A stretch of DNA of 39,744 nt from assembly GCA_945903275.1 (NCBI GenBank), contig CAMDNW010000016.1:1-39744 (forward strand). The letters are read 5' to 3'. Numbering within the stretch: the stretch's first letter is position 1; every line of letters starts with the position of its first letter. This DNA is from Thermoflexus hugenholtzii JAD2. GTDB lineage: Bacteria > Chloroflexota > Dehalococcoidia > UBA2979. The notes below the pieces were generated by a model, which saw only the letters and a program-made list of their open reading frames with translations, did no database searches and was not told where the DNA came from. A program made the translations under genes and the position numbers. Shown one piece after another: positions 7,550 through 16,618 of the stretch.

Positions 7550-7578
7550 TTGACGCTATGGGGGGTGCTGGCTAGTAT
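7550..7578 (+). promoter_or_regulatory. Sigma-70-type promoter of the cytochrome bc operon
   Basis: TTGACG at 7550-7555 and TAGTAT at 7573-7578 are separated by 17 bases. The site lies 55 bases before the small membrane peptide that heads the bc operon and directly after the end of the glycosyltransferase gene. This is one of the best promoter matches in the window. Confidence 0.7.
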
Positions 7579-7788: not shown

Positions 7789-8544
7789 ATGGCGACGAAT
7801 GAGCGACCCGAGGCACACAGCCTCGGCGACCGCGTCTACGACGCCCTCTTCCACAACTACGTTTGGCGCTCGATATTCCGTAGCGGCTACCCCAACACCC
7901 CTCGGAACCAGATGTTGGTAGTGGCCACCAACGTCTTCCTGCACCTGCACCCGACACGGATTCACCGCACCCACGTAAAAATCACCCACACGTACTGTCT
8001 GGGTGGGCTGTCGTTCTTCCTGTTCCTAGGACTGACGATCACTGGTGTGCTGCTCATGTTCTATTACGTGCCCTCGGTCGAACGGGCGTATGAGGACATT
8101 CTCCGCTTGGAGACCGACGTGCGGTTCGGCATCCTGATGCGTAACCTGCACCGCTGGATGGCGCACGGAATGGTAATCACAGTACTAATGCACATGATGC
8201 GGGTGTTCTACATGGGGGCATACAAGCCGCCGCGTGAGTTCAATTGGGTGGTTGGCGTCGTGTTGCTAGTGCTGACGCTGCTGCTCTCGTTCACCGGCTA
8301 CTTGCTCCCGTGGGATCAGCTCGCCTTCTGGGCCATCACAGTCGGCACGAACATGGTCGGTTCCGCTCCCATACTCGGTGAGCCCAACCGGTTCGCTCTG
8401 ATCGGTGGCTTCGAGGTCGGACCAAACGCGCTGATCCGCTTCTACACGCTGCACGTGATCGGCCTGCCGCTGCTCGCGGCGACCTTCATGGCTGTGCATT
8501 TCTGGCGCATCCGCCGCGACGGCGGGTTGGCCAGGCCACTCTAG
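7789..8544 (+). CDS. petB: Cytochrome b6-like subunit of a bc/b6f-type complex
   Basis: A 251-residue four-helix cytochrome b N-terminal half, the membrane quinol-oxidising subunit that carries the b hemes. His121 and His135 (NLHRW and LMHMM, 14 apart) and His222 and His237 (15 apart) are the expected axial ligands. The 14/15 spacing is that of cytochrome b6 rather than mitochondrial cytochrome b. [13 protein letters not shown] lies before helix D. Cys70, in the YCLGG segment at the start of helix A, aligns with the cysteine that holds the extra covalent heme in cytochrome b6. The N-terminal ~50 residues before helix A are longer than in plastid b6. A run of G lies 8 bases before the ATG. The gene for the second half follows 18 bases later. 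Confidence 0.93.
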
Positions 8545-8562
8545 GCCCAGAGGAAAGGCGCC

Positions 8563-9444
8563 ATGGTCACGAACGCACAAGAGAACGCAGTCTCGCCGGC
8601 TGTCCGCGCACGCGCGCGACGGGACCGCGACGAAGAATTGCTGGTCTGGCCAGACCTAGTGTTTATAGAGTTTATTTCTGCGGTCCTCTTCACCGTCACG
8701 TTGACGATGCTGTCGATCGCGATCAATGCGCCGCTCCTCGACCGTGCAAATCCTGCTGTCACGCCGAACCCGTCGAAGGCACCGTGGTACTTCCTAAACC
8801 TGCAAGAACTATTGCTTCACATGCACCCTGCACTTGCCGGCGTGATCGTGCCAACCGTTGCTCTGATCGCGCTGGGCGCTATCCCCTACTTCGATCAGTC
8901 CAACGAGGGACAGGGTGAATGGCTGTCGACGCCCAACGCTTGGAAGCTCACTTGGATCGGCTCCATCGTCGGTACAGTTGTTACGCTGCTGCTCGTGCTG
9001 TGGGATGGCAGCAAGCATGTCGTGCTGTGGGCGATGGTTACCGGCAACGCCGAGTCCGACTGGCCCAAGTTCTTGGACTGGACACGAGGAGCGCGCGCTC
9101 TGCAAGACAACTTGCCATGGCCGGAAGCGCTCCGGAACATCCCGCTCGGCTCCAAAGTGTTGCGTACTGATCTGCTCGGATTGCCACCGATCGATCTCAA
9201 CGTTGATATCGCGGCTGTCATGGTCGAGCAATTAATCCCGACTGGACTGATGATCGGCTTGCCGGTTCTGCTGTCGCTCGTGCTGCACAAAACGGGTATT
9301 GCGCAGACTCGCCGCGACCACATGATCGCGCAGTTCGCGGGCTTCATCGCGGTGTTCGTCGTCTTGACACTGCTCGGTACCGCGTTCCGCGGTCAGGGCA
9401 TGGAGCTGCTCTGGCCGTGGGAAGTCAAGCCGCCGGTATCCTGA
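8563..9444 (+). CDS. petD: Cytochrome b C-terminal / subunit IV-like protein
   Basis: A 293-residue protein matching the C-terminal half of cytochrome b. NPSKAPWYFLNLQELL near residue 70 contains the quinol-site motif in the PWY form seen in many bacterial subunit-IV proteins, where others have PEWY. Five hydrophobic segments can be seen, two more than plastid subunit IV: one before the motif, two after it, and two near the C-terminus after a long soluble stretch. The ATG has AGGAAAGG just upstream. With the b6-like gene before it and the Rieske gene after it, it forms the quinol-oxidation core of the complex. Confidence 0.9.
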   Translation: MVTNAQENAVSPAVRARARRDRDEELLVWPDLVFIEFISAVLFTVTLTMLSIAINAPLLDRANPAVTPNPSKAPWYFLNLQELLLHMHPALAGVIVPTVALIALGAIPYFDQSNEGQGEWLSTPNAWKLTWIGSIVGTVVTLLLVLWDGSKHVVLWAMVTGNAESDWPKFLDWTRGARALQDNLPWPEALRNIPLGSKVLRTDLLGLPPIDLNVDIAAVMVEQLIPTGLMIGLPVLLSLVLHKTGIAQTRRDHMIAQFAGFIAVFVVLTLLGTAFRGQGMELLWPWEVKPPVS

Positions 9445-9469
9445 GTCTGAACGAGCAAGGAGTGCGATC

Positions 9470-10162
9470 GTGACCAATCCACGCTCGACAAACGAAGCAC
9501 CGGATATGGGCGGCTCCCCTGCGATGGGCGAGAGTGGCGATGCGTGGCGTCAAGCACTGGCAACCCGGCGCACCGTGCCTGCGTTAGCAAATGCGCCCGG
9601 TGCTCAAGCCTCGCGGCCGGACATCGAGGCATCGCGACGCACCTTTATTCGCGGCTCATTTCTGGGCGGTCTCGGCCTTGCTCTGCTCGGCTCTGTCGGC
9701 TTCCTGCTCGACTTCTTGTACCCACGCAACGTGCGAGGCTTCGGCGGCCCGGTGCCCGCCGGGAAAGTGGCTGACTATAAGAAAGGTGCTGACCCCAAGC
9801 ACTTTCTCGACGGTCAGTTCTGGGTCGTTAACCTCGATGCTGAAGAATCTCGCACCGGTGGTTCCGGCGGCGGAGCTGGTCTAGTCGCGCTCTGGCACAA
9901 GTGTCCGCACCTTGGGTGCACGGTGCCGTGGCGGCCTGAATTCACGTACGAAGGTGACAAAGGTTGGTTCCGCTGCCCCTGCCACGGTTCGACGTATACC
10001 AAGTCAGGCATCCGGATCTACGGTCCGGCGCCGCGTTCGATGGATACCATGAAGATCGATGTGGATGGTTCAGGGAATGTGATCGTTCAGACGGGCCAGC
10101 GGACGCTCGGCGGTCCCGATAACCCGCAGCGCGGGATAAAGCCCCCCGGTCTACCGGCGTAA
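9470..10162 (+). CDS. Rieske iron-sulfur protein
   Basis: A 230-residue Rieske subunit that carries a [2Fe-2S] cluster and passes one electron from quinol to the c-type acceptor. Box I is CPHLGC (Cys145, His147, Cys150) and box II is CPCHGS (Cys169, Cys171, His172). Cys145, His147, Cys169 and His172 would bind the cluster, and Cys150 and Cys171 would form the disulfide. A single helix near residues 62-80 follows SRRTFIRG, a twin-arginine-like signal-anchor, which fits Tat export of the folded domain. A long low-complexity N-terminus of ~50 residues precedes it. The C-terminus extends beyond the usual end with a Pro/Gly-rich tail. GTG start with AGGAG upstream. Confidence 0.95.
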   Translation: MTNPRSTNEAPDMGGSPAMGESGDAWRQALATRRTVPALANAPGAQASRPDIEASRRTFIRGSFLGGLGLALLGSVGFLLDFLYPRNVRGFGGPVPAGKVADYKKGADPKHFLDGQFWVVNLDAEESRTGGSGGGAGLVALWHKCPHLGCTVPWRPEFTYEGDKGWFRCPCHGSTYTKSGIRIYGPAPRSMDTMKIDVDGSGNVIVQTGQRTLGGPDNPQRGIKPPGLPA

Positions 10163-10207
10163 CGTGAGCATCGTGCGTCGAGTGCGCCCATTCGGAATGG
10201 TAGGCCG

Positions 10208-11368
10208 ATGAACACTAGCAAACAGGTCAACATCATGATCGGGTCGGTCTTCGCCGCTTTTGTGCTTTTTGTCGGGTACATGGGTTACGAGAGCACGCGT
10301 CAGGCACACGCCCGCGAGGAGATCACCGAGCGGGTAGCCGAGCGCGGCGCGCGTATCTACGTGAACAACTGCCGCACCTGCCACGGCCTTGAAGGCGAAG
10401 GGCACGTCGGGCCCCCGTTGAACACCAAGGCGTTTCTGCTGTTGCGCCCGGGCAACCGCTATGGCCTTGAGCCCACACCGCAGGGTGAATCCGACGCGGT
10501 GCAGGGGTTCCTGTTTAACACCCTTGCCTGTGGCCGCACGAACACGTTCATGCCGCTCTGGGCGCAGCGGTTCGGCGGCTCGTTGTCCGACACCCAGATC
10601 AGCCAGCTCGTCACATTGATCACCGAGGGCCGCTGGGACATCGTTCGCGAAATCGCGGTGGACCACGACCCAGAGATTTATGCTGACCAGCTTGTGCCGC
10701 CGCTGCCCAGTTCGGCCGAACTGGCGAAGCTGCCGCGGGGCGAGCAGCGCCGTCTTGCGGCGGAGCGTAATGCTCTCGTGGAGCACGAAGTTGTGGAGAT
10801 GCGCGAGCAGATTGAGAACGGCTTGTACCCTGAGATTATCAAGAAGGGTCAGTCGGCGGCGCTGGTACAGGATCCGTCATCCCTCTCGATCACTGAGAAG
10901 AACTGTGGCCAGTTCAGTGCGGAGACCGCTGCAGATATACGCGGCCGCGACCCGCTGGCCGCAGCGCTGTCCGCACCCGCTGCGGGGGCGGCCCCGCCTG
11001 CCGCGAGCAGCGCGCCCGCCGCCCCTCCGGCGCCCGGGACCATCGTTGTCGATCTGCTCGACACTTTGAAGTTGAGTAGCGTCCCCACGTCAGCGCCAGC
11101 TGGTGCCGTGACCTTCCGTGCCGATAACAAGGGCGCGATCATCCACGAGCTCGCGGTCTATAAGACCGACCTTGCACCTGAAGCCATTCCGATTATGGCT
11201 GGCCGTGCCGATGAGGCTAGGGTGCAAGTCGTCGGCCGTACCAAGAACCTACCAGGCAAGCAGCGCGAGGATCTGCGGTACAACTTGCAGGCTGGAAAAT
11301 ATGTCTTGGTATGCAACATCCCGGCACACTATCAGTCCGGTATGCGTACGGCCTTTACCGTCGAGTAA
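10208..11368 (+). CDS. Membrane-anchored cytochrome c fused to a cupredoxin domain
   Basis: A 386-residue electron carrier. An N-terminal helix (about 8-26) anchors it. A cytochrome c domain follows with one heme site, CRTCH (Cys55, Cys58, His59), and a FMPLW segment near residue 115 that can supply the Met ligand. After a Pro/Ala-rich linker (about 255-285) comes a blue-copper-like domain: His313 in IIHEL, then Cys369, His374 and Met379 in VCNIPAHYQSGM, the full set of type 1 copper ligands. Both redox centres would lie outside the membrane. Placed last in the bc operon, it is the likely acceptor of electrons from the Rieske protein, possibly relaying them from heme to copper to the next oxidase. 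The start was taken at the ATG before the anchor. Confidence 0.88.
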   Translation: MNTSKQVNIMIGSVFAAFVLFVGYMGYESTRQAHAREEITERVAERGARIYVNNCRTCHGLEGEGHVGPPLNTKAFLLLRPGNRYGLEPTPQGESDAVQGFLFNTLACGRTNTFMPLWAQRFGGSLSDTQISQLVTLITEGRWDIVREIAVDHDPEIYADQLVPPLPSSAELAKLPRGEQRRLAAERNALVEHEVVEMREQIENGLYPEIIKKGQSAALVQDPSSLSITEKNCGQFSAETAADIRGRDPLAAALSAPAAGAAPPAASSAPAAPPAPGTIVVDLLDTLKLSSVPTSAPAGAVTFRADNKGAIIHELAVYKTDLAPEAIPIMAGRADEARVQVVGRTKNLPGKQREDLRYNLQAGKYVLVCNIPAHYQSGMRTAFTVE

Positions 11369-11379
11369 GAATCGGGCAG

Positions 11380-11412
11380 ACTCGGGCGGCGTCGTTCTGG
11401 CGCCGCCCGAGT
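11380..11412 (+). terminator. Hairpin terminator after the bc operon
   Basis: A perfect 12-bp GC-rich stem with a 9-base loop begins 12 bases after the cytochrome c-cupredoxin stop codon. There is no T-run after it, so it may stop or slow transcription or protect the 3' end of the message rather than act as a classical intrinsic terminator. Confidence 0.6.
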
Positions 11413-11448
11413 AATATGCGGGGCCCCACTGGGGCGAAGGGGGAGACA

Positions 11449-11773: not shown

Positions 11774-11807
11774 AGAACCCCGGCTCAAGGCCGGGGTTCT
11801 GAGTTTT
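11774..11807 (+). terminator. Intrinsic terminator
   Basis: An 11-bp perfect stem (11774-11784 with 11790-11800) with a 5-base loop is followed by GAGTTTT. It comes 50 bases after the desulforedoxin-like pair and separates it from the yqeY gene. Confidence 0.85.
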
Positions 11808-11845
11808 GGTCGTCCTCCAGTACCATGAATGCTCAGGAGGACGCC

Positions 11846-12298
11846 GTGCCCATTGTGCAGCAGATCCGCGACCAACTCCCCGAGGCCGTCCGCGCTGGCG
11901 ATACCCGACAGCGAGACATCCTACGCCTGTTGATCGCCGCCTTCGATAACGTCCGCATCGCCGCCCGCCACGAACTGAGCGATGACGAGGCCATCACCAC
12001 GCTCCAACGCGAAGCGAAGCAGCGCCGCGACTCCATCGAGCAGTATCGCGCCGGTGGCCGTGACGACCTCGTCCGCCACGAGCAGGACGAACTCGACTTC
12101 ATCGTCGCCCTGCTCCCCGCCGAACTGAGTCCCGAGGAACTCACCGCGATGGTGAGTGCCGTGATCGCTGAGGTGGGTGCGGCTGGCCCCAAAGACATGG
12201 GCAAGGTCATGGGGTCACTCGTAAAGCGTGTCGCAGGCCGCGCGGACGGTGCGCAGGTGAGCGCACTGGTGCGGGAACAACTGGCGAACCTGACATGA
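11846..12298 (+). CDS. yqeY: GatB/YqeY domain protein
   Basis: A 150-residue stand-alone YqeY protein, related to the tail of the GatB amidotransferase subunit that contacts tRNA. Recognisable parts are VLRLLIAAF-like helix 1 (here LRLLIAAFDN), EAKQRRDSIEQYRAGGRDDL, and the C-terminal GPKDMGKVMGSLVKRVAGRADG. Its role in bacteria is poorly defined. The GTG at 11846 was chosen because AGGAGG at 11835-11840 lies just upstream; the ATG at 11825 would put that site inside the gene. Its stop overlaps the next start as ATGA (12295-12298), so it is coupled to the HD phosphohydrolase gene. Confidence 0.88.
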   Translation: MPIVQQIRDQLPEAVRAGDTRQRDILRLLIAAFDNVRIAARHELSDDEAITTLQREAKQRRDSIEQYRAGGRDDLVRHEQDELDFIVALLPAELSPEELTAMVSAVIAEVGAAGPKDMGKVMGSLVKRVAGRADGAQVSALVREQLANLT

Positions 12299-15735: not shown

Positions 15736-15853
15736 CTCATTCTCGGCTCTGCTCGTAAATGTGCTCGCGTGACTTCGTGGGGTTCACACACCCGAGGGGG
15801 TCATTGTGGCAACGTCTCCCACCGACGACTCTGCAGTTCGTTTCGATGTGGAC

Positions 15854-15900
15854 TATCCAGACGGAACGCAACCGGCTTACGGTTGCGTTCCGTCTGGATA
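15854..15900. repeat. Perfect 21-bp inverted repeat with 5-base loop
   Basis: Bases 15854-15874 are the exact reverse complement of 15880-15900; the loop is GCTTA. It lies inside the DUF4389 gene at the point where the reading frame changes. There is no T-run after it and it is within coding sequence, so it is unlikely to be a terminator. Confidence 0.95.
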
Positions 15901-16079
15901 TGATCATCCCGATCCTGATCGTGCTCTCGTTGCTATCGCGCCCCGGATTCGGCTCGCCCGGGGATAGCGAGTCCGGTGACAACGGCATGCGGTTCGAGCG
16001 CAACGAGCGCCGCGGTATGAATGGCGACTCCGCTTCGCGCGCCGCGGTGGCTGGCGGCGGCATCCTTGTCGCGCCAACC

Positions 16080-16142
16080 CTGCTCATGCTGCTCATGCTG
16101 CTCATGCTGCTCATGCTGCTCATGCTGCTCATGCTGCTCATG
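16080..16142 (+). repeat. Seven tandem copies of a 9-bp unit (CTGCTCATG)
   Basis: Seven exact copies of CTGCTCATG occupy 63 bases, followed by a changed eighth unit CTGCTCGTT. They encode Leu-Leu-Met repeats within a membrane helix of the DUF4389 protein. The unit is a multiple of three, so copy-number change would keep the frame. Confidence 0.97.
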
Positions 16143-16618
16143 CTGCTCGTTTGCCGCAAGTACCCGCGCTGGTGGTTCGACTGGAATCGTGAGATAACGC
16201 GCTTCAGCAGCCGGGTCACCGCCTACGGTGGACTGTTGCGTGATGAGTACCCTTCCACCGACGAAGAGCAGTCCGTCCACCTCGATGTGGATTACCCCGA
16301 TGCCCAGCAACTGAACCGCTGGCTCCCGCTCGTGAAGTGGTTCCTCGCGATTCCGCACTACATTGTGCTGCTCTTTCTCGGGTTCGCTGTGGTACTCGTG
16401 ACGATCTTCGCATGGTTCGCGATCCTGCTCACCGGCCGCTACACGCGAGGCTTGTTCGACTTCGTTGTCGGGGTTCAGCTCTGGGGACTGCGCGTGACCG
16501 GCTATGCGTTCCTGCTCGTTACCGACCGCTATCCGCCGTTTTCGATGCGGTAGGCTGGATCGAGGTGCGCTGGTACCCTACGAGACGTCACTCCCCGTCT
16601 GGCAGGAGTCACGCCTCG

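Follow-up and report, generated by a model that had tools for sequence, protein, structure and literature searches.

A b6-type bc complex subunit whose predicted copper tail alternates with heme tails among close relatives

Introduction

Auracyanins, found in Chloroflexus and Roseiflexus, are separate proteins that serve the alternative complex III of phototrophs, and sulfocyanin (SoxE) is a separate archaeal protein. Carriers tethered to complex III are also known, as excerpts of PMC8361435 describe for the actinobacterial bcc-aa3 supercomplex, in which the second heme of the diheme subunit QcrC (cyt cc) delivers electrons straight to the oxidase and no soluble carrier intervenes. Copper and heme carriers can stand in for one another after the b6f complex, where plastocyanin and cytochrome c6 interchange (excerpts of PMC8358224). 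According to parts of three further sources, a heme and a copper carrier share one chain in nitrite reductases that have a cytochrome c or a cupredoxin tethered to them (PMC13324648, PMC6278305; for Chloroflexi, PMC8756737), and some NO reductases set a precedent with a second subunit that has a cupredoxin in place of the heme c fold (excerpts of PMC8756737).

Here, we analyzed a 39,744-nucleotide stretch of DNA (the window), which is contig 16 of a 1.75-Mb genome of Chloroflexota (G000; 97% complete), probably of the class Dehalococcoidia. Its bc-complex operon ends in a gene for a cytochrome c fused to a predicted copper protein, which a preliminary description of the window had taken for a built-in relay from heme to copper. 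Homologous subunits from the same family (f1), from the class and from the phylum were compared with it, as were the oxidases and free cupredoxins of the family.

Results

The operon and its last gene

The features of the operon and of the subunit encoded by its last gene (CYC) are as follows.

7550..7578, + strand: weak promoter-like site upstream of petB (consensus scan, 9/12 matches)
7789..8544, + strand: petB, cytochrome b6-type subunit (Pfam Cytochrome_B, 4.1e-45)
8563..9444, + strand: petD, subunit IV-like second half of cytochrome b (Pfam Cytochrom_B_C, 2.8e-6)
9470..10162, + strand: Rieske iron-sulfur subunit (Pfam Rieske, 7.8e-8)
10208..11368, + strand: CYC, cytochrome c-cupredoxin fusion subunit, 386 aa (ORF list, translation, Pfam)
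10226..10291, + strand: membrane anchor, residues ~7-28 (hydropathy; sole hydrophobic segment of the subunit)
10337..10612, + strand: mono-heme c domain, residues 44-135 (CxxCH motif and Pfam)
10904..10906, + strand: Cys233, putative partner of Cys108 (10529-10531)
10940..11035, + strand: Ala/Pro-rich linker, about residues 245-276 (sequence; model confidence low at 208-270)
11036..11365, + strand: auracyanin-like cupredoxin, residues 277-386 (ligands, alignment, PDB search, fold search)
11144-11146 (His313), 11312-11314 (Cys369), 11327-11329 (His374) and 11342-11344 (Met379), + strand: copper ligands predicted from the motif
11774..11800, + strand: terminator-like hairpin at the end of the operon, ahead of the YqeY gene at 11825-12298 (12 pairs, 8 GC, T-rich tail)

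The gene of the fusion subunit closes a petB-petD-Rieske-cytochrome c operon. Best PDB matches of petB were to cytochrome b6 (3.7e-48), and its Cys70 (codon 7996-7998) lines up with cytochrome b6 Cys35 (YCLGG/FYCLGG), the residue that carries the extra heme in b6f. With a split cytochrome b and a Rieske protein in one operon and the extra-heme cysteine present, the complex classifies, by its genes, as a Rieske/cytochrome b complex of the b6 type. The petB product also scored 289.4 bits against the NCBIfam model of ExtP, a cytochrome b of selenite/tellurite operons (cut-off 290); within a petB-petD-Rieske-CYC operon an ordinary b6-type role is the likelier one. This gene order was found at 33 of 35 f1 loci, the other two (G029 and G026) being cut by contig ends, and most loci are flanked by a GT2 gene upstream and yqeY downstream. 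The promoter-like site is considered weak because the region contains two such sites where shuffled sequence has 1.1 on average; for terminator-like sites the figures were 8 and 3.6. Elsewhere in the window, a perfect 9-bp tandem repeat (CTGCTCATG, 7.7 copies, 16080-16148) lies within ORF 15759-16553 and encodes Leu-Leu-Met repeats; its copy number may be variable.

The reading frame of the fusion subunit runs from an ATG to a stop codon over the same span (10208-11368, + strand) as in the preliminary description, which had proposed a membrane-anchored, single-heme cytochrome c joined by a Pro/Ala linker to a cupredoxin, within a bc complex. Each of these parts was recovered: one anchor, a single CxxCH (CRTCH, residues 55-59, at 10370-10384), a Cytochrome_CBB3 domain above the Pfam cut-off in the whole protein (residues 44-135, 4.6e-7), an Ala/Pro-rich stretch between heme domain and cupredoxin, and petB, petD and Rieske genes directly upstream. 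Met115 (10550-10552) of the heme domain was invariant in an alignment of 13 sequences (A3) and is likely the axial heme ligand. Cys108 and Cys233 (CGR/CG(Q,N)) occur together in 35/35 family members and may form a disulfide. The structure model of the whole protein was poor (mean pLDDT 58.3), with the heme domain poorly built.

All four type 1 copper ligands named in the preliminary description (His313, Cys369, His374 and Met379) stand at those residues. An AlphaFold2 model of the tail built from a five-row alignment (mean pLDDT 75.5) matched 6kol, the auracyanin of Roseiflexus castenholzii, best in Foldseek (E 1.2e-5, TM 0.69), followed by EfeO (a metal-binding protein of cupredoxin fold), rusticyanin and auracyanins B and A. 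The preliminary description had named a closer match to a non-metal cupredoxin fold as one outcome that would speak against its reading; in the fold search, a blue copper protein ranked first and a metal-binding one second. 6kol was again the first PDB match of the tail sequence (E 6.1e-4), at an identity of just 23% over the alignment. SoxE (sulfocyanin, PF06525) matched residues 340-383 with 19.6 bits in the whole protein and 23.0 bits in the tail alone (cut-off 21), the sulfocyanin equivalog TIGR03094 reached 17.7 bits against a cut-off of 168.4, and there were weak matches to CopI and EfeO models. By its ligand set and modeled fold, the tail is predicted to be a type 1 copper cupredoxin that binds copper. 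All four ligands were kept in 11 of 11 aligned fused tails from f1, and dN/dS of the tail was about 0.2-0.4 in three of four pairs of relatives (dS was saturated in the fourth), so the tail is more than a chance addition. In the three pairs with usable dS, purifying selection on the tail was looser than on the heme domain.

Copper and heme tails within one family

Thirty-six f1 genomes (G000-G035), mostly draft, were examined first, and 35 of them gave the subunit. The first CxxCH was present in all 35 orthologues, and the linker was followed by a cupredoxin in 11, by a heme domain of type A in seven and by one of type B in 17. Seven further orthologues added one copper tail (Copper-bind above cut-off), three heme A and three heme B tails (the latter assigned by eye), giving 12/42 cupredoxin, 10/42 heme A and 20/42 heme B tails in total. 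The class draw held 44 f1 genomes, of which all but G025 and G323 gave a CYC match, and each of the 42 had exactly one (E <= 1e-12). A full-length homologue of the fusion subunit with 55% identity was found in G005. The same-genus relatives of G000 (G001 and G002) both carry heme tails, and G000 is their sister in the concatenated operon tree (support 100/99). Free cupredoxins are numerous across the family. Further CBB3 matches in other open frames were found in the copper-tailed genomes G007, G008, G012, G014, G019, G021 and G022, and none with this model in the copper-tailed G005, G011 and G034.

The operon tree was built from petB, petD, Rieske and heme domain and had 39 rows, 35 of them from f1; the divergent G041 and G044, G025 (without CYC) and seven f1 proteins read later were left out, and the rows of G029 and G026 were incomplete (contig ends). 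At least six changes between copper and heme were required within f1, all six forced by well-supported branches, gain and loss not being told apart; with three tail types, nine changes were counted. AU tests rejected a single clade for copper (p 0.0025), heme A (4e-49) and heme B (1e-57) tails. The same nine three-state and six copper/heme changes were obtained from the heme domain alone and from petB, petD and Rieske alone, with well-supported branches forcing three copper changes in the former and five in the latter.

The tails themselves were placed in two further trees. A tree of the heme tails together with the CoxB domains, made by a quick method from 54 rows and 101 columns, united the heme A tails in one clade (95), the heme B tails in a second (98) and the CoxB domains in a third (83). 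The idea that heme A tails are copies of the CoxB domains of the same genomes was unsupported, as the heme A clade lies apart, next to the CoxB domains as a whole. The cupredoxin tree, of 50 rows and 115 columns, was built without G004_L123 (no ligand motif), the free copy of G014 (G014_L122), the free copy of G025 and several weaker free matches. Copper tails did not form one clade in it (five changes, four of them forced, direction not told), so more than one gain is possible. The tail of the window's protein paired with a free paralogue from its own genome, G000:C2 (100/100), and both grouped with the fused tails of G005 and G019 (94/86); the tail may be a recent copy of this paralogue, or the copying may have run the other way. 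Given a conserved host protein, scattered tails and coherent heme-tail clades, the tails of the f1 subunit are apparently passed around as modules. On this view the other parts of the complex would have been inherited together while its last carrier was exchanged repeatedly between copper and heme types.

The oxidase and other carriers

G000 has one COX1 match, its sole detected heme-copper oxidase, which is of caa3 type, and one CoxB ORF with a fused C-terminal heme c; the oxidase operon adjoins ccm genes (named by eye). As judged by two Pfam models (PF00034 and PF13442), the fusion subunit and CoxB are the only c-type cytochromes above cut-off in this genome, and its lack of a soluble cytochrome c is to be read within those models. 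A third, weak match (G000:C20:10443-10568; L092, L172) looks like the last part of a cytochrome c; its frame has no CxxCH, and it is perhaps a decayed gene. Two free cupredoxin genes, G000:C2 and G000:C1, are 64% and 46% identical to the fused tail, one of them with a lipoprotein-like N-terminus, and G000:C21 gives a third, partial match (41% identity over 39 residues of the tail). With two free cupredoxins and part of a third in the genome, the tethered copper is not necessarily the sole carrier. At locus L050, a free cupredoxin 64% identical to the window's tail (8314-8862, -) lies just downstream of 9033-11435 (-), by eye a molybdenum hydroxylase large subunit.

Among relatives, CoxB carries a heme c in 27 of 30 COX2 loci (one per genome), whatever the type of the bc tail, and the other three loci (G003, G019 and G035) encode different COX2 proteins. 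A COX2 match was absent in five of the 36 f1 genomes, including the copper-tailed G012 (77% complete). In G022, a caa3 subunit IV fused to a cupredoxin (L164:8992-9708, +) is encoded inside the CoxB-CoxA-CoxC operon (COX4_pro 2.5e-11, Copper-bind 5e-6; TIGR02229 below cut-off), and G008 has a fusion of the same kind (L101:674-1426, +; COX4_pro 1.5e-10, Copper-bind 1.2e-7). Both of these cupredoxins stand beside fused bc tails in the cupredoxin tree (99/93). G004 and G019 have a second oxidase with a heme-free COX2 (L166, L167) beside a divergently transcribed cupredoxin, which is lipoprotein-like in G004. Together, the subunit IV fusions and the cupredoxins beside COX2 lend circumstantial support to a relay towards the oxidase.

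Occurrence in the class and phylum

Searched with a heme-domain profile, 151 of 393 genomes of the class (E <= 1e-12) and 74 of a phylum draw of 301 (E <= 1e-15) gave a match. From the class outside f1, 39 proteins were chosen by hand, one to seven per tool-defined family (33 together with G041, G044, G050, G054, G056 and G059), and 32 of them end in a copper-ligand-type motif. The others end in a heme (G041, G044, G061), lack a tail (G054, G177, G235) or break off at a contig end (G276). Pfam searches covered 18 of the 33, including 16 with the copper motif: eight pass a cupredoxin cut-off as whole proteins and five more with the tail alone, and for three members of family f33 a cupredoxin model is below cut-off, although still the best match (E 0.0019 to 0.014). 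The remaining copper-motif proteins of the class were called by motif and position. G056 and G059 have two tandem Cupredoxin_1 stretches above cut-off. Tandem Cupredoxin_1 domains on this cytochrome c subunit occur in two families other than f1 (L044:3546-4838, +; L047:1264-2526, -).

LysM domains lie between the heme and the copper motif in all three f33 proteins tested (1e-21 to 1.2e-38). The f33 LysM loci are L203-L207, L228 and L229, of which L203, L205 and L206 were tested and the rest were read by eye; anchoring a redox tail to the cell wall would be odd. Proteins of family f66 (L214, L215, L239) have very long linkers with many degenerate 'VERGxxGTxxxxH' repeats, followed by a SoxE/auracyanin-like tail. 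In the other Chloroflexota classes, one protein from each of 20 families was inspected: 17 have at least two CxxCH motifs and three a terminal cupredoxin, all three above the Pfam cut-off. The fusion of heme and cupredoxin is thus common in the class, and its uniqueness to G000 is rejected. Reductive dehalogenases are matched 27 times in G047, a genome of the same class, some of the matches being fragments of a single frame; this suggests that the class is Dehalococcoidia.

Discussion

With a probability of roughly 70%, we assign the fusion subunit to a b6-type bc complex as its cytochrome c and read its tail as the last carrier of that complex, forming a tethered Rieske-heme-copper relay to the caa3 oxidase in which the tail type has been exchanged repeatedly. 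Electrons from quinol would pass through the Rieske cluster to the anchored heme of the fusion subunit and from there to the tethered copper, which would swing on its linker to the oxidase and deliver them to the heme c of CoxB and on to CuA. The copper tail would be the complex's own last carrier, a job that would fall to the second heme c domain in sister species and to the second QcrC heme in actinobacteria. Copper binding and electron transfer by the fusion subunit are predicted here from its sequence.

Among the alternatives, the one that survives best, although we consider it unlikely, is that the tail acts as a docking point from which electrons pass from the heme to free, anchored cupredoxins and then to the oxidase or other acceptors. 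Such cupredoxins are at hand, with two free genes in G000, one of which has a lipoprotein-like N-terminus, and many in the family; however, sister species place heme c domains at the position of the tail, and the cupredoxins on oxidase subunit IV in G022 and G008 suggest a direct handover between complexes III and IV. We regard as quite improbable a role of the tail off the electron path, as a copper store or chaperone for CuA assembly. The predicted copper binding, the weak CopI and EfeO model matches and the second place of EfeO in the fold search are compatible with such a role, but in relatives with the same caa3-type oxidase heme c domains replace the tail, and the type 1 ligand set is complete in a fold nearest to that of an electron carrier.

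The exchange itself could be only apparent if ancestral paralogous subunits with different tails had been lost differentially, as the single clades of heme A and of heme B tails might suggest. Yet the same nine tail-type changes follow from the heme domain as from the remainder of the operon, so whole-gene paralogy would require duplication of the entire operon; all 42 f1 genomes with a CYC match have a single one, and N-domains do not sort by tail type. We therefore consider differential loss, too, to have very little probability. That the fusion is an assembly artefact or arose by chance in a draft genome can be dismissed in view of the full-length G005 homologue, the same architecture in many genomes and the purifying selection on the tail, and many independent homologues in the class and phylum surveys rule out that it is confined to one genome.

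The tethered relay to the caa3 oxidase thus remains our preferred reading, and we lean, somewhat less firmly, towards a more general one. The last carrier would be an exchangeable plug on a vertically inherited subunit, on which copper (auracyanin type, single or double Cupredoxin_1) and heme c have replaced each other many times by recombination, as a covalent counterpart of the choice between plastocyanin and cytochrome c6; in some lineages the copper would sit on LysM (cell-wall-binding) domains or also on the oxidase. The built-in relay of the preliminary description stands as the likeliest function, and the same domain pair beside petB and petD, for which it had suggested a search, was found in further f1 genomes, with the fusion itself present in many genomes of family and class. 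The description was incomplete in three respects: the fusion is common in the class; tethering is not the new part, since diheme QcrC already tethers a carrier to complex III, as excerpts of PMC8361435 report; and the mutual replacement of copper and heme tails at the same place among close relatives lay beyond a single sequence. Within the open-access literature, the scope of our search (subscription papers and preprints fell outside it), no description of this fusion or of tail exchange was found; the new part would be a copper tail alternating with heme tails on one bc subunit.

If correct, this reading offers a natural swap experiment, with copper and heme compared in the same complex, at the same position and with the same type of partner oxidase, down to one genus. 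It would make testable how interchangeable copper and heme are in respiration, what drives the choice between them (metal supply, potential, oxygen) and in what way the plugging of domains shapes the evolution of electron chains. The class of G000 is known mostly from uncultured genomes, and its respiring members may depend on copper at the step from complex III to complex IV, which heme-based annotation would miss.

Compared with known systems, the fusion subunit resembles QcrC in that an anchored cytochrome c of complex III bears a further redox domain on a tether, which here would serve the oxidase directly. Unlike in QcrC, this second domain is a predicted type 1 copper cupredoxin, there is one CxxCH instead of two, and the NCBIfam QcrC model reaches 22.9 bits against a cut-off of 200; moreover, cytochrome b of G000 is split (petB/petD) and b6-like, and its caa3 oxidase has a heme c of its own. 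In contrast to nitrite reductases, which are catalytic enzymes, the fusion protein is a subunit of a bc complex. As to sulfocyanin, the tail alone passes the Pfam SoxE cut-off, and so do free relatives, whereas the fusion subunit is far below the NCBIfam sulfocyanin cut-off. Auracyanin is the nearest solved relative of the tail in fold and sequence, but in G000 it forms part of a bc complex subunit; and while plastocyanin and cytochrome c6 are separate proteins, the copper and heme alternatives of f1 are covalent tails of one subunit.
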